From Chitinophagales bacterium (GTDB taxonomy: Bacteria; Bacteroidota; Bacteroidia; Chitinophagales; Chitinophagaceae), in NCBI GenBank assembly GCA_015654695.1, contig JAATGJ010000038.1, forward strand, positions 1-64,000: 64,000 bases of DNA, given 5' to 3'. The notes under the pieces were generated by a model. The model searched no databases and had not been told where the DNA came from. It was given only the letters and a program-made list of their open reading frames with translations. Of the stretch, positions 2,849 through 55,482 are shown piece by piece. The translations under genes and the position numbers were made by a program. Numbering within the stretch: the first letter of the stretch is position 1; every line of letters begins with the position of its first letter.

Positions 2849-3247
2849 TCATTCCTGCGAGTGCAACGCAACCCTGTTACCTTCCGTATCGCTGAAAAAA
2901 GCCATGTACCCGATCTCAGGACTGATATGTGTTTTCGGCATTAAAATTTTCCCTCCCTCCAGTTCCACTTTTTCCAAAACGGTGGTCATATCCGGGTTTG
3001 CATTCAGGTAAACGAGGGTCCCCTCCATAGAAGGCTTATGATAATCACTTTGCACCAGTGCGCCGTAAACTTTACCACTGCTGCTTTCACCCGGAAACAT
3101 AGCCATCCTCATCCCCATCATTTCCATTTCATCCATGTGGAAGCTGAATAGTACCTGGTAAAAATGTTTGGCCCTGTGCATATCTGTAACGGGTATCTCA
3201 AACCAATTGAGGCTATTTGTAGTTGTGTCCATAGTATAAAATTTCAT
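2849..3247 (-). CDS. VOC (glyoxalase/bleomycin-resistance fold) family protein
   Basis: A 132-residue single-domain member of the vicinal-oxygen-chelate superfamily. It opens with NWFEIPVTDMHRAKHFYQVL, the typical beta-strand and helix of the fold, and ends with GYMAFFSDTEGNRVALHSQE, where the glutamate of EGN and neighbouring residues often contribute to metal binding. The substrate cannot be inferred. A second ATG at 3232 (MDTTTNSL) is an equally good start. It is a single-gene unit with a terminator at 2633-2656. Confidence 0.82.
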   Translation of the reverse strand: MKFYTMDTTTNSLNWFEIPVTDMHRAKHFYQVLFSFHMDEMEMMGMRMAMFPGESSSGKVYGALVQSDYHKPSMEGTLVYLNANPDMTTVLEKVELEGGKILMPKTHISPEIGYMAFFSDTEGNRVALHSQE

Positions 3248-3322
3248 ACAAGGTAGAATTAATGTCTTTATTAAAATCCGGTAGTTTTAATTTAATACAA
3301 AGTTTTTTACACAGGTTGTAAA

Positions 3323-3363
3323 CAAAAAAAATCCACCCCGGTACTGACTGGCGCCGGGATGGA
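3323..3363 (-). terminator. Second leftward terminator with no obvious gene feeding it
   Basis: On the minus strand, TCCATCCCGG and CCGGGGTGGA form a 10-bp stem with one mismatch (3354-3363 with 3332-3341), followed by an eight-T run. A stronger terminator lies just upstream at 3508-3541, so this one would end a transcript that starts between them, or catch read-through. Confidence 0.65.
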
Positions 3364-3507
3364 AAACTGCATGAGAAAATGCTGCAAATAGATTGCTAAC
3401 CCATTTTGTAATGTAGGAACGAACGATCTGATAATGATAAGAACTGGTGTAAAGATGAGTGATATATATTACAGGGAGGTTACGCTAAAATTATCTTAGT
3501 GTTAAAC

Positions 3508-3541
3508 AAAAGAACCGGCTCCTATGGAAGCCGGTTCTTTT
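3508..3541 (-). terminator. Strong bidirectional terminator of the beta-helix lipoprotein gene
   Basis: AAAAGAACCGGCT (3508-3520) pairs perfectly with AGCCGGTTCTTTT (3529-3541) around an 8-base loop. The A/T ends give a U-tract on either strand. It lies 20 bases beyond the leftward stop codon at 3562. Confidence 0.9.
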
Positions 3542-3561
3542 ATAAGGATAAATTATTAGTA

Positions 3562-5022
3562 TCAATAATTAAATTTTGTCCATCCTTTCCACCAACTGGC
3601 CTGCTCACCTGCAGGAGCAATAGCGCCGCGGAATGTTATCGTTTTATCGAAGAAGGTATCCCCGGTAAATTTAAGATCAGTAAAGCCTGCACCATTAAGA
3701 ATTTTCTGGTTACCGCTGCTGCCTGCAAAAGGTGTAGGGTCCGGTGCTCCATAATTATAGGGCTGAATCAATTTTGCATCTGATGTATTAGTAAGAATAT
3801 CATTATTATAGTATGAGTTGGTAGCCCAAGCTGTCAGTGTCGCATCAGAATTAATAGTAGCTCCGCCGGTTCCTGTAAATTTAAAAGGTGTGGCATTACC
3901 TGCCAGTGTCACATTGCGCAGGCGCAAAGTGCTGTCTTCAATATTTAAAGCGGTTGAATTTCCTAAAGAGGCATCAATTAAAATACCCTGTGGCCATCCC
4001 AGAAAGATGGAATTGAAAATTGAAATGGCTGAATTTCTCCTGATCTGCGCCCCGGCACGAAATAAACTATTTCCTGTATTATTCAATGTTGCTTTCGGAC
4101 CAATCGCTGTAACGTTACTGAATATAGCGCTGGTTTTTGGTGTGACTGTAGTTCCTGTTGAATTATTATCGCTTTCAAAAGCTTCAGAAGTTGAAATGTC
4201 TGCGATCAAAGAATCACGTATCACCAGCCCATACTGTACTTTTCCACTGTACCCGTTATCAGTATCAAAATCATCATCCTGTGTTTTATAAGCAATCAGG
4301 TATTTACAATTCACTGTTCCGCCAAACCACTCATACGCATCATCTTTTGCATAAGCAACCTGGATATGATCAATAATAGTACCCCTGCCCACTGCAGCTA
4401 ATGTAAGACTGTTTATTTCTTTATCGGGCTGAATAGCATAACCAGCCCATTCAATACGTACATACTGTAAAGTACCGGAATTATCATTATCATCAGGTGC
4501 AGCGCCGCCACCGGCAAGGCCATCTCCGTTACTGTTATTAATACCTCCTTCTACTTCGTATATTCCCGCACCACCGCCTGTACCGGTAAACGTTGTATTG
4601 ATACTTGCTTTACCACAAAGTACAATACCACCCCAGTCTCCCGATTGCGGATTAGGAGAGGCTGAAGTAAAGATAATAGGATCTGAGGCCGTCCCTGCAG
4701 CCACAATTTTTGACCCCCGGGTAATGATCAGTGCCGCTACATCGGCCCCGCCAACAGAACCCTTAATAACTGTGCCCGCTTCAATTGTCATGGTATGATT
4801 ACCTACCATATATACTCTTTCGCCAAGGATATATGTATTTTGTTTCCGCAAGATAGTATCGGCATTGATGCGACCTTTAAGAGTGATTGTTTGTCCGCTG
4901 GTACCGCCGTTACCACCGCCATTAACAACTACAACTTGTATTTCGCCATCCGTTTCAACTTTCCGGCAACTGGTAGCCGCCAGAACAACAAAGGCAGTTA
5001 AGCAAAGAATGTACTTTTTCAT
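3562..5022 (-). CDS. Beta-helix-type surface lipoprotein linked to a TonB receptor
   Basis: 486 residues with a lipoprotein signal (cleavage before Cys19 in ATSCRKV) and a glycine-rich linker (GGGNGGTSG). The body is rich in Val, Ile, Asn and Gly with repeated strand-turn units such as MTIEAGTVIKG, IIFTSAS and FSNVTAIG, which suggest a right-handed parallel beta-helix. Acidic Asp/Asn clusters (PDDNDNSG, DDDFDTDNGY) could bind metal. No catalytic motif was recognised. It starts 20 bases after the stop of the TonB receptor and is probably co-transcribed with it, so it is likely an outer-membrane-anchored accessory of that receptor. A role in phosphate or phosphoester capture is inferred from the neighbourhood only. 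Confidence 0.7.
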   Translation of the reverse strand: MKKYILCLTAFVVLAATSCRKVETDGEIQVVVVNGGGNGGTSGQTITLKGRINADTILRKQNTYILGERVYMVGNHTMTIEAGTVIKGSVGGADVAALIITRGSKIVAAGTASDPIIFTSASPNPQSGDWGGIVLCGKASINTTFTGTGGGAGIYEVEGGINNSNGDGLAGGGAAPDDNDNSGTLQYVRIEWAGYAIQPDKEINSLTLAAVGRGTIIDHIQVAYAKDDAYEWFGGTVNCKYLIAYKTQDDDFDTDNGYSGKVQYGLVIRDSLIADISTSEAFESDNNSTGTTVTPKTSAIFSNVTAIGPKATLNNTGNSLFRAGAQIRRNSAISIFNSIFLGWPQGILIDASLGNSTALNIEDSTLRLRNVTLAGNATPFKFTGTGGATINSDATLTAWATNSYYNNDILTNTSDAKLIQPYNYGAPDPTPFAGSSGNQKILNGAGFTDLKFTGDTFFDKTITFRGAIAPAGEQASWWKGWTKFNY

Positions 5023-5042
5023 TTCTATTTTTTTAAATGATT

Positions 5043-7847
5043 TTACAATGAATAATTAAACGTTATACTAAAAGTGGTGCCCAGCTTCCTGGTAAACCGG
5101 TAAGCATCCGAGTTTTTTTGAAAGGTTGTGTTATCCCCGATATTTTGATAGAAATACTGTGTTTGGTTTAGTATATCAGAAATATTCAGCCTGATCTCTG
5201 CTTTATTTTTTATAAATTTTTTGGCTAATTGCAGATCAAGTAATGCTCTCGGCGCTTCATACACATCAGGTGAAGCTGCGGCTGCAGTTTTGTCGCCAAC
5301 CAGGTATATTCTTTCACCAATCTGGTTAAATAAAATTGTACCGCTGAAACCCGTTTTTTCCAGGTCGTACAACAAACCAAGATTTAATACATAAGGAGAT
5401 TGTCCCTGGAGCGGTCTGTTCAATTCAAATCCGGCATCTTTCACCCGGCTGTAGATATAAGACACATTAGCCTGGAAGGTGAAATTCTTTAATACATCAG
5501 CGAAATCGAGTTTTTTTCTCATCTCAATTTCTGCGCCGTATGAAGTGGCGGATTCAGGATTCTCAAACCGGAAGGTACTTGACCCACCGGCGCCTTCATT
5601 CAATATCTGTTCAATAGGTTTGTCAAAATGCTTATAGAATACCCCTGCAGTGAATACTTCGCCGGCATGCGGATAGATTTCATAACGTAAATCTCCATTA
5701 ATAACTTTCGTTCTTTCTAAAGTAGGCTTGCCCTGCACAGAAGCATTCAATTCAAAATCATATAAGTTCAAATCAGACAGTTCACGAAGTTCAGGGCGGA
5801 TAACAGTTTGTGAACCCGATAAACGTAGATTGGTTTTTGAGTTAAGCTTCAACGTTGCATTCAGACCAGGAAGAAAATCAGTTACTTTAGTGTAGGTGTG
5901 ACGCAGATCCCATTTTTTTACACTCCCTACAAGCTGATCATAATTTTCAACCCTCAATCCCCACACTACCCGCAAAGATTGGGTAAACTGGTTATCTAAT
6001 TGTAAAAACCCTGCATTTAAGATGGTATTGGCCATATACCGGTATGACCTGTTAATAATAGCATCAAAAGCAAACTTCGTACTGGTTCTTGATCCATCAC
6101 CGAAATTTTCCGGGGCGAATATCTGGTTAGCGGGTAACTGTTTTAAAGCATCATTGTCTGTTGGCAGGTAATTGGCAAAAAGTACCGCATCAAAAAGACG
6201 GTCTTTTACCTGTAGCATGTAACCACCTTTCAAGCTTTGTTTTTGATTCAGCCAATTAAAATTATAAGTAAGGTCTCCACCGCCTGTATAAATGTAGTCG
6301 CTCAGGCTTTGATAAATACGGCTTCCGCTTTGTTGCGAAAGGCTATTAGAAATAACTGCCCGAAAAGGTTCCTGGGTAGTTGTTCTTGAGTAAAGAATAC
6401 GCCGCTGATCAGGAGTATAACCATCAAGAATATTGAAAGCTCCATACCATTTAAATTTGAGGGGTTGCGCCAAACTATGTTCTCCCGCTATTTGTCCGGT
6501 GAAAAAGGTATTTTGTTTAAACCGAAACTCCGTTCCCTGTAACAGCGGATCAGGTCTTCCAATATCAGTTCCATTCCGTTCCGTTACATAATTCGAGGTA
6601 TTAACATTGATAATTGATTTTACCGATATCTTATTCAGCGGGTTAAGTTGTATGGTAAGACTACCCAGCGCCCCTGCCGAAATATCCTGTGCATAACGGT
6701 CATCATCGTAGTTGGTTTCAATCGCTACCAGCTGATTGTTTACTATATCTATATTGTTTCGCCTGTTTAGTAATTTAAGATACCTGTTTGTTTTAGTGTA
6801 AATAATTCCAAAATTTCCGCCAATTGTTTTTCTAAATATTTTTGTATTAAACCCGCCGTTTGCCTGTACAGATACATTTACCGGGGCTGATGATGACTCT
6901 GTTGCCTCCCAGGCATTTCGCATTTGTTTCCCGATTGCTGTTTTTTCAGCTGGTGACAAAATACCAAATTGATACTTCGTCGTATAGCTGGGAGGCATAG
7001 CCCTGGTGCCATCATCAATACCCAGCCAATCCAGTTTACCACCCTGGTCTTTATAAAATTTCTTCCCGATGGTTTCAGAATTGAATCCTGTTCCTACCTG
7101 CAAATTAAAAAACCCCTTGGCAGGAATATCTTTTGTATTTACCTGTATCAAGCCACCGGCCCATTCACCCGGATATTCAGGAACAAATGCTTTGTTGATA
7201 ATTATATTATCAATCATCTGTGCAGGAATAAGATCAAAAGAAAATGTTTTACGGTCAGGCTCTGTACTTGTCAATAAAATTCCGTTCAGCATCGCCTGGT
7301 TATAACGGTCAGCCAGGCCTCTTACTACAATAAATCTTCCTTCCTGTATGCTGGCGCCGGGCGTACGCTTTAATACTTCACCTGTATTTCTATCAGGTGA
7401 ACGGCGTATGCTTTCTGCAGAAATAACTGAAGCAACAGTATTGGTGTTTTTTTGAAATGAAATAAGGGAAGCCGTCGTTTCCTTACGTGCGGTTGAAGCC
7501 TGTGCTTTAACTACTACTCCTTCCAAATTTTTTGTTTGAGTCTCCAGTACAATGTTCAATTCATTGACCTGGCCATTGATCACTTCTACCTCGCTGATAG
7601 TTTTACTTTGAAAACCCACAGCAGAAAATTCCAACTCATATTTTTTTCCAACGGTAAGATTCAATGAATAGCGTCCTTCAATATCTGTAGTGGCTCCGCC
7701 CGCTTAACCCGTAATTTTTACTGAAACGCCGGATACAGGTTCATTTTTTGAGTTGGTTATTTTACCAGTGAGTTTTAGTTGCGCATTTGCAAAAGAAAAA
7801 AGCCCTAAAACCAGCACAGTCATCATCATTCGCAGCCTTAAATACAT
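5043..7847 (-). pseudogene. TonB-dependent outer-membrane receptor, interrupted by an in-frame stop at codon 48
   Basis: A TonB-dependent receptor of 934 codons. From the ATG at 7847 come a signal peptide (MTVLVLGLFSFANAQ), then the start of a carboxypeptidase-regulatory-like beta-sandwich domain (KLTGKITNSKNEPVSGVSV). The frame then meets TAA at 7706-7704. The same frame continues as AGGATTDIEGRYS, which completes that domain. The plug follows (IVVRGLADRYNQAMLNGILL) and then a long beta-barrel. An internal TTG at 7664 would give an 873-residue product without signal peptide. The single stop is the only defect, so this is a recent nonsense mutation or a base-call error. It lies between the porin gene and the beta-helix lipoprotein. 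Phased repeats at 7881-7941 suggest control by phosphate. Confidence 0.82.
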
Positions 7848-7862
7848 AATGGTTATTTCCGG

Positions 7863-7870
7863 CAAAGGAA
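7863..7870 (-). promoter_or_regulatory. Probable -7 element of the TonB-receptor promoter
   Basis: TTCCTTTG on the minus strand differs from TAnnTTTG at one base. It sits 10 bases downstream of the nearest phased repeat unit (7881), the spacing expected when an activator replaces the upstream promoter element. Confidence 0.35.
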
Positions 7871-7879
7871 GGTCTGGAA

Positions 7880-7941
7880 GGTTACCGTCATGTTACCCGC
7901 AGATTAAGGAATTATGATGCCAATGTTAACGCAATGTTAAG
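7880..7941 (-). promoter_or_regulatory. Pho-box-like phased direct repeats upstream of the TonB receptor
   Basis: Units GTTACC (7881), GTTACC (7892), ATTAAG (7903), GTTAAC (7925) and GTTAAG (7936), read on the plus strand, all fall on one 11-bp register; only the 7914 position is missing. On the minus strand the last two read TTAACA-N5-TTAACA, identical to the Bacillus Pho-box layout. Adjacent genes are a phosphate porin and phosphate transport proteins. Confidence 0.6.
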
Positions 7942-7948
7942 CGCCGGT

Positions 7949-9253
7949 TTAGAAGCGGAATTGGACACGGCAGGTGAAAATATTATCCTTTATGTCGCTG
8001 GTATAGCCGGGTAATTGTGTCAGTTCATTCTTAACAATATCGTAATACAGCACCAGTTTGATATTGTCACTATGATAATAAGTATAGCCAATACCAATTG
8101 TGGAATAGCTCATCCCGGTAGAAGATAAATTAGTTCCGGGTCTGCCAATATCTTTTCCTTTAATCTTTGTATCAGGATCATACCAGTCATACTTCAGCAA
8201 TAACTGGTGTTTCTTATTAATAATATTCTGTAAAAAATAAAAGAAAGCTCCATTAAAGTCCCTGATATAAACTGGTGTACTGGGGAGTGTGCCAGGATTT
8301 GTAGTGGTGGTGGTTGACCCTGATTGCTTGCCATACCAGTATTCTCCCCTTATTTCTGTTTCACCCCATGGATGATGGAGTTTTAGCTGTACATCAGCGC
8401 CATAGTATTTACGCGGCGCAATTTTGCCGATATTGGATAAAGAAGAATCAACAACGTAAATATTATCTCCATTCACAGCAGTGCCATTTTTATAAATATA
8501 CTTTGTCTCTTGCCGCCATCCTCCCTGTAAAAGAGAGAGCCCGCCGCTGATTTCCACCTTATTAAGCCTTACAGGTTTGATGATAATCCTGCTGATAAAA
8601 TCTTTACGGCTGTCAAAGTCTGTTGTACCCGACAGACCCGGTCCGTTAAATACTCCTGCATCAATTTTTAACCACTTCCATTTGCTTTTTCTCTCTTGTC
8701 TCTCGAAAGTTAACATGACACCAAGATCACGTTCAACAGGCATCAGGATCTGCGACATTCTTCCTCTTTCCGGGCTTTCTCTAAAACCGGAAGAAAGGTT
8801 TACTTCATACCCAAAAGGCCTGGCGAAAAGACCTGTGGTGAGTGCGAAATTGTTGTGCTTCGTCTCATAAAGCCGCAGGAACATATCCCTTGTATTGACA
8901 CCGCGTTCAGTAGCATCAAACTGGAAAGTGAATAATGCTTTAGGAAACTTATCTTTCGTCATGAGAAAGTAATCCAGCTTAACCCTTGCCCTGCGGAGCA
9001 GAAAACGGCTTTTTGAAAATTGTGAAAAATCACCTCCATTATATGATTTTGAACCCTCTGTTTGCGCCAACTGAAACTGTGGTTGTATATATCCTGACAT
9101 GTGGATGTTATCAAGACGTTTTAGTAAAGGCCTTAGTGTGTCTTTAATAAATAAGGAGGAATCCAGGTCGGAAAGATATCGTTGTGAAAACCCTGTTGTA
9201 TAGAAAACTAAAGCAAAACCGAGGAAAACCCACCGTCTTAATGTGCCGTTCAT
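7949..9253 (-). CDS. Phosphate-selective porin O/P family protein
   Basis: A 434-residue outer-membrane beta-barrel porin of the OprO/OprP family, predicted to let phosphate or polyphosphate pass. It has a signal peptide (LGFALVFYTTGFSQ) and a short helical lead-in. The family hallmark stretch is visible (FLLRRARVKLDYFLMTKD, about residues 84-101), followed by alternating strand and turn segments. The last residues (FTCRVQFRF) end in an aromatic, as expected for barrel insertion. It is transcribed away from the DUF47/PiT pair across a shared intergenic region with phased repeats, and stands 101 bases ahead of the TonB receptor gene, which has its own repeat set. Confidence 0.88.
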   Translation of the reverse strand: MNGTLRRWVFLGFALVFYTTGFSQRYLSDLDSSLFIKDTLRPLLKRLDNIHMSGYIQPQFQLAQTEGSKSYNGGDFSQFSKSRFLLRRARVKLDYFLMTKDKFPKALFTFQFDATERGVNTRDMFLRLYETKHNNFALTTGLFARPFGYEVNLSSGFRESPERGRMSQILMPVERDLGVMLTFERQERKSKWKWLKIDAGVFNGPGLSGTTDFDSRKDFISRIIIKPVRLNKVEISGGLSLLQGGWRQETKYIYKNGTAVNGDNIYVVDSSLSNIGKIAPRKYYGADVQLKLHHPWGETEIRGEYWYGKQSGSTTTTTNPGTLPSTPVYIRDFNGAFFYFLQNIINKKHQLLLKYDWYDPDTKIKGKDIGRPGTNLSSTGMSYSTIGIGYTYYHSDNIKLVLYYDIVKNELTQLPGYTSDIKDNIFTCRVQFRF

Positions 9254-9321
9254 AATTTAATAATATTAAAATAACCCTGCTTTGAAGGGCTGCAAGGTAA
9301 AATAGTGTTATAATAAACCTA

Positions 9322-9372
9322 TGTTACCAGCCTGTTATTAAATTATTACTTCTATATTAAATAATTATTAAC
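9322..9372. promoter_or_regulatory. Five-unit Pho-box-like repeat between the porin and DUF47/PiT genes
   Basis: GTTACC (9323), GTTATT (9334), ATTACT (9345), ATTAAA (9356) and ATTAAC (9367) occur at exactly 11-base steps. They lie 70-118 bases before the leftward porin start and about 90-140 bases before the rightward DUF47 start. The phase matches the set in front of the TonB receptor, so one regulator, probably PhoB-like, may serve all the units. Confidence 0.6.
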
Positions 9373-9463
9373 TCTGCCCTGATCCGGTGAGCTGTATGGT
9401 CAAGCGGGTAATTTCGCAAACCTCTCTTCCATACAGGCATACAGGGAGTAAAAACTATCAAAT

Positions 9464-10114
9464 ATGGCAGGACTCAATTCTTTTCTCAAAATATTCATGC
9501 CGAAGAACCGAATCTTTTTCGAGCTTTTTGAACAGGTGGCTGATAATTGCGCCAAAATGGGCTCAGTGCTAAAAGATATGGTAGCAGAACCCGATTTTGA
9601 CAAAAGAGCTGCGCTGATCAGCCAGATAGAAGACCTGGAACATGCCAATGATGAACTGACACACAGCATATTCACTGAACTTGGCCGCAATTTTATCACC
9701 CCTTTTGACCGGGAAGATATTCATTACCTCGCCAGTTCATTAGATGATATTGCCGATTATATTTACGCTTCCGCAAAAAAAATCAATTTTTACCGTGTCA
9801 ATCCCAACGACATGGGTATTCAGAAAATGGCCGAACTGATAGAACAGGGTTCCATACAGATACGCAACGCTGTACTGGAGTTAAGAGACATGAAGAATAT
9901 GCGCAAAATCACCGAAGCCCTGGTAAAGATCAACAGCATCGAGAACCAGGCCGATGATGTTTTTGACATGAGTATTGAAAGATTGTTTGCCACAGAACCG
10001 GATGCCAAAGAAGTGATCAAGAAAAGAGAGATATACCAGGTAATGGAGATCGTTACCGACAAATGTGAAGATGCGAGTAATGTGATCGAGTCTATCATTA
10101 TTAAGTACGCTTAA
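9464..10114 (+). CDS. DUF47/PhoU-like phosphate transport accessory protein
   Basis: A 216-residue all-helical cytoplasmic protein of the DUF47 family, related to PhoU. Such proteins are commonly encoded next to PiT transporters and are thought to modulate them. Visible features are the acidic helix pairs typical of PhoU-like bundles (DREDIHYLASSLDDIADYIY and ENQADDVFDMSIERLF), which carry metal-binding E/D-x-x-x-D patterns. It is the first gene of a pair with the PiT transporter, separated from it by a 99-base gap that holds a word-repeat hairpin. The upstream phased repeats may control it. Confidence 0.88.
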   Translation: MAGLNSFLKIFMPKNRIFFELFEQVADNCAKMGSVLKDMVAEPDFDKRAALISQIEDLEHANDELTHSIFTELGRNFITPFDREDIHYLASSLDDIADYIYASAKKINFYRVNPNDMGIQKMAELIEQGSIQIRNAVLELRDMKNMRKITEALVKINSIENQADDVFDMSIERLFATEPDAKEVIKKREIYQVMEIVTDKCEDASNVIESIIIKYA

Positions 10115-10117
10115 ATA

Positions 10118-10212
10118 CAATGTGCTAATGCGATAATGTACTGATATGCTAATGTCACGGCTACTAACACCAATCAGCACATCAGCATATTAGCTAATCA
10201 GCAAATTAATCT
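10118..10212. repeat. Word-repeat inverted element (TGCTAATG family)
   Basis: The left half repeats TGCTAATG-like words on the plus strand (TGTGCTAATG, ATATGCTAATG). The right half repeats the complementary words (CATCAGCATATTAGC, TAATCAGCA). The two halves can fold into a long imperfect hairpin that fills almost the whole gap between the DUF47 and PiT genes. No protein is encoded. Confidence 0.6.
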
Positions 10213-10213
10213 T

Positions 10214-11416
10214 ATGACCATCTTCCTTATTGTCATCATTGTTTTAGCTCTCATCTTTGATTATATCAATGGCTTTCATGACGCCGCCAATTCTATAGCC
10301 ACTGTTGTTTCTACCAAAGTACTGACACCTTTCCAGGCGGTATTGTGGGCGGCATTATTCAACTTTGTCGCTTTTTTTATTTTTAAAGATCATGGTGTAG
10401 CTAATACCATCGCCAAAACAGTAAAAGGTGATTTCATTACGCTGGAAGTGATTTTTTCAGGACTTATTGCGGCTATAGCCTGGAACCTATTTACCTGGTG
10501 GCGGGGGATTCCCTCCTCTTCGTCCCATACATTAATAGGAGGGTTTGCGGGAGCCGCTATTGCCCATGCAGGCGGGTTTTATGCTGTCAATCCCGATCCG
10601 GTAATTAAAACTGTGGCGTTTATTTTCCTGGCTCCACTGATAGGTATGATCATGGCGTTTCTTATATCATTATGGTTCATTTATTCCTTCCGCAAAGGCT
10701 GGGGGCCAAGAATATTTTCTTCCCTTATCATTTTAGGCATTATTATATTCCTGTGGTTCAGCATAGAAACTGATCCGGCAAAACTGAAGTCGCATTATGA
10801 ATCTTATTTGTTGAAAGTTATTTTTCATGCCCAGAATTTCAAATGGTTATTGCTTAGCCTTATCATTATCATAATGGCTGTTTTCTCGCTTTATCTGAGC
10901 AAGCTGAATGCACACAGGGCCAATGCGTGGTTCAAAAGATTACAATTAGTTTCTTCAGCCATATTCAGTATTGGTCATGGTGGTAATGATGCACAAAAAG
11001 TAATGGGGATCATTATGGCAGCCCTGATCGCTGCTGAGCCAGGTAAGTATAGCCTTGACCACATGGTATGGTGGGTGCCTCTTGCCTGTTATTCCGCCAT
11101 CTCATTTGGCACAATGAGTGGTGGTTGGAAGATCGTTAAAACAATGGGAACAAGAATCACTAAAGTAACCCCTTTTGAAGGAGTAGCGGCTGAAACTGCA
11201 GGAGCCCTTACATTATTCATTACAGAATACCTGAAAATACCAGTAAGCACTACCCATACTATTACCGGATCTATTATAGGGGTAGGCGCTACCAAGCGTC
11301 TTTCCGCCGTTCGCTGGGGAGTTACCGTTGATCTTTTGTGGGCCTGGATACTCACCATTCCCGTCAGTGGTTTATTAGCTACCGGAGTTTACTACCTCGT
11401 TCATTTGATCCGTTAG
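10214..11416 (+). CDS. Inorganic phosphate transporter, PiT family
   Basis: A 400-residue inner-membrane carrier that imports phosphate with a cation. Both copies of the PiT signature are present: an N-terminal one (DYINGFHDAANSIATVVSTK, about residues 15-34) and a C-terminal one (SIGHGGNDAQKVMGI, about residues 254-268). Around ten hydrophobic segments flank a short central loop. The signature PVSTTHTITGSIIGVG occurs near the C-terminus. It follows the DUF47 gene, its usual partner. Together with the porin and TonB genes it gives a route for phosphate from outside the cell to the cytoplasm. Confidence 0.93.
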   Translation: MTIFLIVIIVLALIFDYINGFHDAANSIATVVSTKVLTPFQAVLWAALFNFVAFFIFKDHGVANTIAKTVKGDFITLEVIFSGLIAAIAWNLFTWWRGIPSSSSHTLIGGFAGAAIAHAGGFYAVNPDPVIKTVAFIFLAPLIGMIMAFLISLWFIYSFRKGWGPRIFSSLIILGIIIFLWFSIETDPAKLKSHYESYLLKVIFHAQNFKWLLLSLIIIIMAVFSLYLSKLNAHRANAWFKRLQLVSSAIFSIGHGGNDAQKVMGIIMAALIAAEPGKYSLDHMVWWVPLACYSAISFGTMSGGWKIVKTMGTRITKVTPFEGVAAETAGALTLFITEYLKIPVSTTHTITGSIIGVGATKRLSAVRWGVTVDLLWAWILTIPVSGLLATGVYYLVHLIR

Positions 11417-42048: not shown

Positions 42049-43086
42049 TCATACCGGGCATTTCTCATGATAGTTCACCAGTTCGATGGGCGTTTTCTCT
42101 ATTTCAAAACCTGCATAAGTAACAGCTATCTCATTGAGCACTTCGTTTATCTCTTCTTCCGTCTTCAACGTTACCAGCCTGTTACGAAATTCTTTTATGT
42201 TCGGCAGGCCTTTTAAATAATTAGCATAATGACGGCGCATCTCATTAATACCCACAACCGGGTTCTTCCATTCTACTGATCTGCGGAGATGTTTGCGGCA
42301 AACAGCTATCCTGTCAGCAATGGTCGGTGATGGCAGATGTTCTCCTGTTTTTATAAAATGTTTTATTTCGTTAAAAATCCAGGGATAACCAATAGCCGCA
42401 CGACCGATCATGATGCCGTCAACACCATACCTGTTTTTATACTCTACTGCCTTCTCCGGTGAATCAATATCGCCATTACCAAAAATGGGTATGCTGATGC
42501 GCGGATTGTTTTTTACTTTACCGATCAGTGTCCAGTCCGCTTCGCCTTTATACATTTGTGTACGTGTACGTCCATGAATAGCCAGTGCTTTAATGCCAAC
42601 ATCCTGCAAACGCTCCGCTACTTCTTCAATGTTCCTGGTTTTATCATCCCAGCCAAGTCTTGTTTTCACCGTCACAGGTAGTTTTGTCGCTTTTACTACT
42701 GCATCGGTCAACCGAACCATCAGGTCCAGATCTTTCAATACACCGGCGCCGGCGCCTCTCAAGGCAACCTTTTTCACCGGGCAACCAAAATTTATATCCA
42801 GCAGGTCAGGATTGGTTACTTCAACGATCTTAGCCGCAAGCGCTAAACTTTCCTCGTCACCGCCAAATATCTGGATGCCCACAGGACGTTCATAATCGAA
42901 AATGTCTAATTTCTTCCTGCTTTTAATAGCATCCCGTATTAACCCTTCTGAAGAAATAAACTCCGTGTACATAAGGTCAGCCCCATTGTCTTTGCACACG
43001 GCCCGAAAAGGCGGATCACTCACGTCCTCCATGGGAGCAAGGAGTAAAGGAAAATCCGGAAGTTGTATGTCGCCGATCTTTACCAT
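42049..43086 (-). CDS. dusB: tRNA-dihydrouridine synthase (DusB-like)
   Basis: 345 residues. Reduces uridines in tRNA to dihydrouridine, with FMN. A TIM barrel starts LLAPMEDVSDPPFRAVCKDN and has the LLDINFGCPVKKV stretch around the catalytic Cys. AIHGRTRTQMYKGEADWTLI and FGNGDIDSPEKA (FMN phosphate) are diagnostic. The C-terminal RNA-binding helix follows. It is on the same strand as the MutS-like gene, which starts 86 bases after it, and may be co-transcribed. Confidence 0.94.
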   Translation of the reverse strand: MVKIGDIQLPDFPLLLAPMEDVSDPPFRAVCKDNGADLMYTEFISSEGLIRDAIKSRKKLDIFDYERPVGIQIFGGDEESLALAAKIVEVTNPDLLDINFGCPVKKVALRGAGAGVLKDLDLMVRLTDAVVKATKLPVTVKTRLGWDDKTRNIEEVAERLQDVGIKALAIHGRTRTQMYKGEADWTLIGKVKNNPRISIPIFGNGDIDSPEKAVEYKNRYGVDGIMIGRAAIGYPWIFNEIKHFIKTGEHLPSPTIADRIAVCRKHLRRSVEWKNPVVGINEMRRHYANYLKGLPNIKEFRNRLVTLKTEEEINEVLNEIAVTYAGFEIEKTPIELVNYHEKCPV

Positions 43087-54774: not shown

Positions 54775-55482
54775 TCACTCCGAATATTTATACCCCACAC
54801 CCCTCACCGAATGAAAATATTTTGGATTGCGGCTGTCTTCTTCAAAGTATTTGCGGAAGTTGAGTATGAAATTGTCAATGGTGCGGGTAGTAGGATATAC
54901 ATTATATCCCCAGACAGCCTGTAATATTTTTTCTCTCGGTACTACTTCATTTTTATTTTCGATCAGCAGTTTCAGCAGCATCGTTTCCTTTTTGCTTAAT
55001 TGTATCTTTTGCCCGGATTTTGCAGTAGCTTCCTGCGCTTTGAAATCAATGATGTTATCTCCGAAAGAATAGCTGTTGCCGAGAGAAGATTTATCCAGCA
55101 GTTTTTTATTCTTGTCTATCAGCTTGTGTATCCTTAATAAAAGCTCTTCGAGATTAAAAGGTTTGGTGAGATAATCATCAGCGCCTTTTTTCAAACCCAG
55201 CACCCTGTCGGCGCTGCTGTTCTTGGCGCTAAGGATAAGAATCGGCACTTCATTGTTGCTGATGCGAACTGTTTCCGCTACAGTAATGCCATCCATTTCC
55301 GGGAGCATTACGTCCAGGATGATCAGGTCAAAATATTCCGCACTCACTGCATGAAGCGCCGCAGCGCCGTCAAAAGCGGATGTTACATCATAGCCTTCCA
55401 GCTCCAGGTTCAGCTTCAGCGCCTCATGAAGGTTCTCTTCATCCTCCACCAACAGAATGGATGTCTTTTTTTCTGCACTCAT
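54775..55482 (-). CDS. OmpR-family response regulator
   Basis: 235 residues. The receiver domain has the acidic pair VEDEENLHEA and the phospho-acceptor Asp in DLIILDVMLPEMDG. The conserved Lys is in KKGADDYLTKPF. The C-terminal winged helix ends IDNFILNFRKYFEEDSRNPK and VRGVGYKY. Its start overlaps the stop of the histidine kinase gene by four bases. The regulated genes are unknown. Confidence 0.94.
   Translation of the reverse strand: MSAEKKTSILLVEDEENLHEALKLNLELEGYDVTSAFDGAAALHAVSAEYFDLIILDVMLPEMDGITVAETVRISNNEVPILILSAKNSSADRVLGLKKGADDYLTKPFNLEELLLRIHKLIDKNKKLLDKSSLGNSYSFGDNIIDFKAQEATAKSGQKIQLSKKETMLLKLLIENKNEVVPREKILQAVWGYNVYPTTRTIDNFILNFRKYFEEDSRNPKYFHSVRGVGYKYSE

Follow-up and report, generated by a model that had tools for sequence, protein, structure and literature searches.

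Tandem 11-bp Repeats as Putative Pho Boxes of the Chitinophagaceae, with a Candidate Small RNA among Their Targets

Arrays of a tandem 11-bp unit are, on sequence evidence, likely to be the Pho boxes of the Chitinophagaceae, putative PhoB sites that stand in place of the −33 promoter element. They were recognized in a 64,000-nucleotide stretch of a Chitinophagales bacterium genome (contig JAATGJ010000038.1, positions 1 to 64,000; hereafter the window), where array A, between an outer-membrane porin gene and a DUF47-PiT gene pair, is one of four; the others occupy 7877-7942 and 3464-3507 (both on the minus strand) and 9236-9279 (plus strand). In the proposed mechanism, PhoB would be phosphorylated at low phosphate and would bind adjacent 11-bp units along a single face of the DNA. 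The spacing between the end of the last unit and the −7 box TAnnTTTG downstream of it is constant at many targets, and it follows from this spacing that bound PhoB would sit in place of the −33 element, from where it would recruit RNA polymerase. Targets in this genome would be a TonB-dependent receptor gene with its lipoprotein gene, a small RNA, and probably the porin gene, on which the regulator at array A would most likely act; the scheme would also take in weaker three-unit sites before pstS, just behind a gene for a PhoA-type phosphatase, and next to phoBR. The features of the receptor-porin-PiT part of the window are as follows.

3562-5022, minus strand: surface lipoprotein gene (486 amino acids), next after the TonB gene
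5043-7847, minus strand: TonB-dependent receptor gene (Plug and PF14905 above cut-off; PF13715 below cut-off, E 2e-4)
7863-7870, minus strand: −7 box of the TonB receptor gene, TTCCTTTG, with TTTG at the standard offset of 21 (read by eye)
7877-7942, minus strand: TonB array, six units, the strongest in the window (31.2 bits over four units)
7949-9253, minus strand: outer-membrane porin gene (434 amino acids; strand-rich model, porins as Foldseek matches)
9236-9279, plus strand: array B, four weaker units (21.8 bits), overlapping the porin start codon and facing array A
9292-9299, minus strand: possible porin −7 box, TACCTTGC, of TAnnTTGC type
9319-9373, minus strand: array A, five 11-bp units (TTAATA, TTAATA, GTAATA, ATAACA, GTAACA) oriented toward the porin gene
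9409-9417, plus strand: probable −7 box of the DUF47-PiT promoter, TAATTTCGC, of TAnnTTCGC type
9464-10114, plus strand: DUF47 (PhoU-like) gene (PF01865, E 3.3e-19)
10214-11416, plus strand: PiT phosphate transporter gene (PF01384, E 1.2e-93)

The porin was assigned by structure: the predicted model (pLDDT 81.4, pTM 0.76) lists 18 strands, and its best Foldseek matches are porins at a TM of about 0.5, with OprO (4rjx) ranking third. The protein has no match in Pfam, a sequence search of the PDB found nothing, and an orthologue matches Porin_O_P, below the cut-off only. The reading frame of the TonB receptor is broken near the gene start by an in-frame TAA at 7704-7706, which marks either a pseudogene or a sequence error; receptor genes that follow arrays in other genomes are open and encode 932 to 938 amino acids. 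The 486-amino-acid lipoprotein aligns at 38 to 46% identity with four proteins whose genes follow arrays in other genomes.

An original prediction had described array A as five RTTA words at an 11-bp phase, and the positions hold exactly: GTTA begins at 9323 and 9334 and ATTA at 9345, 9356, and 9367, in exact 11-bp register, such that the words span 9323-9370. The array therefore has the direct repetition at 11 bp that characterizes a Pho box. Three such words at 11 bp occur 6 times in the 64-kb window (0.20 expected), and five words with up to three mismatches 10 times (0.32 expected). Shuffled A/T-rich spacer, in which an equal frequency of such runs would have counted against the prediction, yielded no run of five in 20,000 dinucleotide-preserving shuffles of the 210-bp porin/DUF47 gap (67% A+T; a run of four in two of them) or in 20,000 of its A/T-richest 80 bp (a run of four in eight). 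When any period from 8 to 14 was allowed in the latter, a run of five arose in 1 of 4,000 shuffles. Across the 5.42 Mb of the genome, four RTTA words in phase match three times in two places, both inside the window, against one match of a reversed control pattern. The same phasing recurs before DUF47 genes elsewhere. In 81 regions of 400 bp (two of them shorter) upstream of DUF47, comprising the window and the best 80 of 575 loci from a DUF47 protein search, runs of at least three RTTA words number 42 at 11 bp, 0 or 1 at each period of 7 to 10 and 12 to 16 bp, and 3 on the opposite strand; the 11-bp runs fall in 36 of the 81 regions, leaving 45 without any on that strand (counted from the listing). 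A/T-richness alone is insufficient to account for array A.

The consensus that the prediction drew from these words survives as a Pho-type 11-bp repeat, and its letters are better read on the minus strand, as TTAAYA plus 5 nucleotides. RTTA on the plus strand as the forward unit was rejected because the position of the promoter box is fixed only downstream of the TTAAYA reading. A weight matrix built from 143 units, with the window left out, reads NNNTAAYANTN toward the gene. The box emerged from 64 distinct arrays of related genomes that were selected without regard to promoters. In 29 of the 64, TTTG begins 21 nucleotides past the first position of the last unit; every other offset accounts for at most 5, and the upstream side is flat. 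The remaining 35 arrays lack TTTG at offset 21. Among the related loci covered, L086-L115 are the 30 returned by one search, and L123-L159 were hand-picked among the matches that it listed, with the repeats of genome G003 omitted and the flanks unread at selection. In Bacteroidota, the established −7 box reads TAnnTTTG (PMC7366714 and PMC9723704).

Searched as a single pattern, three units plus the box matched 38 times against 2 for the control in 98 genomes of the family, and 27 times against 4 in 198 genomes of the class; with the spacing lengthened by three bases, there were 6 matches against 2. At least 6 of the 38 family matches (in genomes G013 and G051) belong to a second array class ascribed to another regulator. 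The strict pattern has no match in the genome under study because its boxes read TTCCTTTG and CATCTTTA. The arrays as a group hold the fixed position relative to the promoter that is expected of a Pho box standing in for the upstream promoter element, and array A does not. Array A, which the prediction had put forward as the source of a first consensus, stands as a conserved site, but the best template is the TonB array at 7877-7942 because on neither side of array A does a promoter box stand at the standard distance. The two three-unit halves of the TonB array score 25.7 and 24.3 bits, and several loci without a porin carry an array like it (units aligned by eye).

RTTA words are a poor general search tool. 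In 59 family genomes (the satellite-rich G003 being omitted), four in phase gave 129 matches and the reversed pattern 54, and 39 genomes of the same order showed no enrichment (17 matches against 19 for the control); the pattern is a poor tool because it also matches the G003 satellite and the arrays of the second regulator and yields no excess outside the family. G003, a same-genus genome, contains on many of its contigs a dispersed 11-bp tandem repeat, GTTATACTGGA, that mimics phased RTTA runs. A strict TTAAC pattern applied class-wide found 9 matches, in 9 of 149 genomes, against 2 in the control, which may be taken as mild support.

The genes that TTAAYA arrays precede in related genomes encode TonB receptors, surface lipoproteins, porin-like proteins, PlcP-like proteins, and PhoX, and, less clearly, PstS. 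By a scripted rule, 10 of the 64 arrays had no open frame behind them, and the 54 that did led to 51 distinct proteins, of which 22 contain CarboxypepD_reg (a domain common in TonB receptors) and 19 a TonB plug, 3 are calcineurin-like phosphoesterases (PlcP-like), and one each is PhoX, Porin_O_P, and DUF47; two DnaB helicases look like bystanders. The prediction's proposal of a PhoB- or PhoP-type box gains support from the shuffles, which contain no such runs, and from these arrays before other phosphate-linked genes. Its suggestion that phased runs should precede other phosphate genes is borne out in part, for PhoX and PlcP-like genes, and for pstS weakly.

For sites elsewhere in the genome, we scanned with the matrix built without the window for three-unit arrays of at least 12 bits. 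The window gave five matches (in the four arrays), the pst/phoA contig two, and the phoBR contig two, one of which is over 16 bits; there were none at this threshold on a third contig that encodes another PF12849 protein or in 400 kb of background (twenty other 20-kb stretches, picked by hand and therefore nonrandom). Because shuffles of the window yield 0.85 matches per 64 kb at 12 bits (and 0.1 at 16 bits or more), the weaker phoBR match may be due to chance. On the pst/phoA contig, one match lies before pstS and the other just behind a PhoA-type phosphatase gene. The pstS site (16.9 bits) and the phoBR site (16.7 bits) each consist of three weaker units at other distances to TTTG, and the latter is directed away from phoB, toward a 743-amino-acid protein without a Pfam match. 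Two genes adjoin phoBR at L120, at 7175-9406 (743 amino acids, downstream of the three-unit array) and 4726-7008 (760 amino acids), and neither product has a Pfam match. A lone two-unit match of 15.4 bits at 42166-42187 of the window (minus strand) is possibly a chance occurrence.

Searches around PF12849 genes, a family that also takes in proteins other than PstS, found an array at 7 of 30 loci in the family (2 of 30 in reversed sequence), six of the seven lying, as read from the coordinates, about 1.4 kb upstream, before another gene. In the class, 10 of 29 loci have one (4 of 29 when reversed), of which eight lie no more than 400 bp from the match on the same reading, and TTTG stands at offset 21 in 7 of 17 class arrays. 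These counts make a weak case for pstS as a target of the arrays.

The conservation of array A was judged in 15 aligned porin/DUF47 gaps: that of the window, that of L145, and those of the 13 loci closest to it among 33 in which the porin was found. Array A scores at least 22.6 bits over four units in 14 of the 15, several of which also fed the matrix, and array B at least 21.7 bits in 5. The DUF47 side carries a TAnnTTCGC box in 13 of 13 loci tested, 55 to 58 bp from a TATATTA anchor within array A, and the spacing between this box and the ATG ranges from 27 to 65. On the porin side, TAnnTTGC occurs in 12 of the 15 gaps, at a spacing (hand-computed to the porin-nearest unit) of 15 in five loci or 29 to 32 in seven; this box resembles the SM5 variant that PMC9723704 reports for Flavobacterium psychrophilum. 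TAnnTTTG was rejected as the promoter box of array A, there being none within 60 nucleotides on the porin side in any of the 15 gaps and TAnnTTCGC on the DUF47 side. From its conservation in 14 of 15 gaps and these box spacings, we take array A to be a real and conserved site, flanked on both sides by a nonstandard promoter.

It is scarcely credible that array A is A/T-rich spacer that no protein recognizes and whose 11-bp periodicity is due to chance or to DNA bending. The base composition of the gap would suit such an origin, but the shuffles, the scarcity of runs at other periods, the bias toward one strand, the constant distance to TTTG, and the conservation of the array all run contrary to it, and chance was rejected on the excess of three-word runs, the period counts, and the shuffles. 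As the main target of array A we moderately favor the porin, with the DUF47-PiT pair the less probable choice; the same regulator may in addition tune DUF47-PiT, from about 60 bp upstream of its promoter. It is also rather unlikely that array A serves chiefly to repress DUF47-PiT at phosphate starvation instead of activating the porin. Such repression has a precedent in Sinorhizobium meliloti, where PhoB represses orfA-pit and OrfA is a DUF47 protein, and the constancy of the 55- to 58-bp distance to the DUF47 box in all 13 loci speaks for it; the array, however, lies upstream of that promoter and not on it, its units face the porin, and the arrays of other DUF47 loci stand at quite different distances.

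PhoB is a putative assignment, made by best score alone: the best candidate in the genome reaches 227.7 bits and so stays below the model cut-off of 296.2, a score attained in no more than 2 of 14 named control genomes. The next gene after that of the candidate encodes a histidine kinase. The window itself encodes, at 54781-55464 on the minus strand, a second response regulator of OmpR type, which scores 167 bits to the PhoB model. At L152 (3900-11400), and also at L153 and L154, there is a second class of 11-bp arrays with CTAAT/TTAAT words at the same distance to TAnnTTTG; at L152 they adjoin a histidine kinase/OmpR-type regulator pair and hemerythrin-like, aconitase, and glutamate synthase genes, and we ascribe them to another, putative regulator with the same geometry. 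Because at least five proteins of the genome match the PhoB model over its full length and because this second class, with other letters, adjoins its own kinase/regulator pair, array geometry is no proof of PhoB, and the TTAAYA arrays could belong to a different OmpR-family response regulator that also governs outer-membrane uptake genes. We consider that improbable, given that the targets include phosphate-scavenging kinds (PhoX and PlcP-like) and some pstS genes and that weaker arrays occur on the genome's own pst/phoA and phoBR contigs.

The remaining array of the window, read as a Pho box like the others, precedes a candidate small RNA.

3464-3507, minus strand: array before the small RNA (22.4 bits), with standard spacing to its box and no gene behind it
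3450-3457, minus strand: −7 box of the small RNA, CATCTTTA, with TTTA at offset 21
3324-3449, minus strand: candidate small RNA of about 125 nucleotides, conserved, ending in a G/C hairpin and T8

The fold of 3311-3438 has a z score of −2.81. With a model built from five copies, the RNA was found in 12 of 195 genomes of the family, in 6 of 101 genera, and all 12 copies have a four-unit array of at least 22 bits and TTT[AG] at offset 21. Four of the 12 are training copies, found mostly via their arrays; the array and spacing are likewise present in all 8 copies outside the training set, which are independent save that one shares its genus with a training copy. In the terminator stem, 99% of cells are paired, four of eight pairs have changed on both sides, and the covariation score was reached by none of 500 shuffles. 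The element thus combines its own promoter with an intrinsic terminator, conserved with covariation, as expected of a trans-acting small RNA. Rfam returned nine weak matches over 3000-10300, most of them around another terminator at 3508-3541, none at gathering threshold, and none within 3324-3449.

One segment of the RNA, UUCUCAUGCA, is invariant in 13 aligned copies except for an A-to-G change in two. Its complement, the 13-mer ACUGCAUGAGAAA, matches exactly at one other genomic position, the start codon of a gene (C118) for an M28 peptidase with a signal-like N terminus (by eye); there, 16 nucleotides over the start codon are perfectly complementary to the small RNA. A search that allowed one mismatch gave 11 matches against 7 in the control, and so only the perfect start-codon match was kept. 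The peptidase start is the predicted target of the small RNA, and this single match may be luck because many secreted proteins start with similar codons. We know of no Pho-controlled small RNA described from Bacteroidota in the open-access literature searched.

Pho boxes of other phyla offer close parallels. That of Escherichia coli PhoB (CTGTCAT with 4-nucleotide spacers) shares the tandem 11-bp direct repeats and takes the place of the −35 element some 10 bp ahead of the −10 box; here, in contrast, the letters are TTAAYA, the units usually number three to six, and the promoter has the Bacteroidota −7 box TAnnTTTG where E. coli has a sigma70 −10 box. The PhoP box of Bacillus subtilis, TTAACA with 5-nucleotide spacers, has nearly the same word and the same 11-bp period but belongs to a different phylum and sigma factor. 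The E. coli box is described as two 11-nucleotide units (PMC4415409), and putative Pho boxes are reported at plcP in marine bacteria (PMC4796936). Within the phylum of the source organism, Bacteroides fragilis PhoB is reported to bind a 512-bp pstC promoter fragment in a gel shift and to be needed for pstC expression at low phosphate; the words "binding site" and "consensus" are absent from the main text of that report (PMC3547664). In Flavobacterium johnsoniae, the TonB-dependent transporter (TBDT) 0545, FI-FIII, PhoX, PlcP, and PhoA1 are reported to shift by 7.4 to 14.5 log2 units when phosphate is low, and OprP and PhoR to show no significant rise (PMC8115612). The kinds strongly induced there, including a TBDT with PF14905, lipoproteins FI-FIII, and PhoA1 with GDPD_2, are those that our arrays precede, and the TBDT, lipoprotein, and OprP genes adjoin phoBR; the words "pho box," "promoter," and "binding site" are absent from the main text of that paper (PMC8115612). 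Among the open-access matches listed, we found no defined Pho box for Bacteroidota, although subscription papers and regulon databases may differ.

Bacteroidota are major phosphate scavengers in soil, on roots, and in the gut, and in the open-access literature found their phosphate regulon has so far been mapped by expression, without a defined box. Taken as a whole, we advance only tentatively, at slightly less than even confidence, the proposal that the Chitinophagaceae, and probably much of the Bacteroidia, have a Pho box of their own (three to six units of NNTTAAYANNN at a set distance before TAnnTTTG) that would drive uptake genes together with an undescribed small RNA, which at phosphate starvation would mask the start codon of at least one peptidase gene and in this way block translation. 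A readable box at a fixed promoter distance would permit prediction of the regulon from sequence and quick gel-shift tests, and would offer insight into the way in which an activator cooperates with the unusual promoter of Bacteroidota. With the small RNA comes a possible posttranscriptional arm, which is directly testable.
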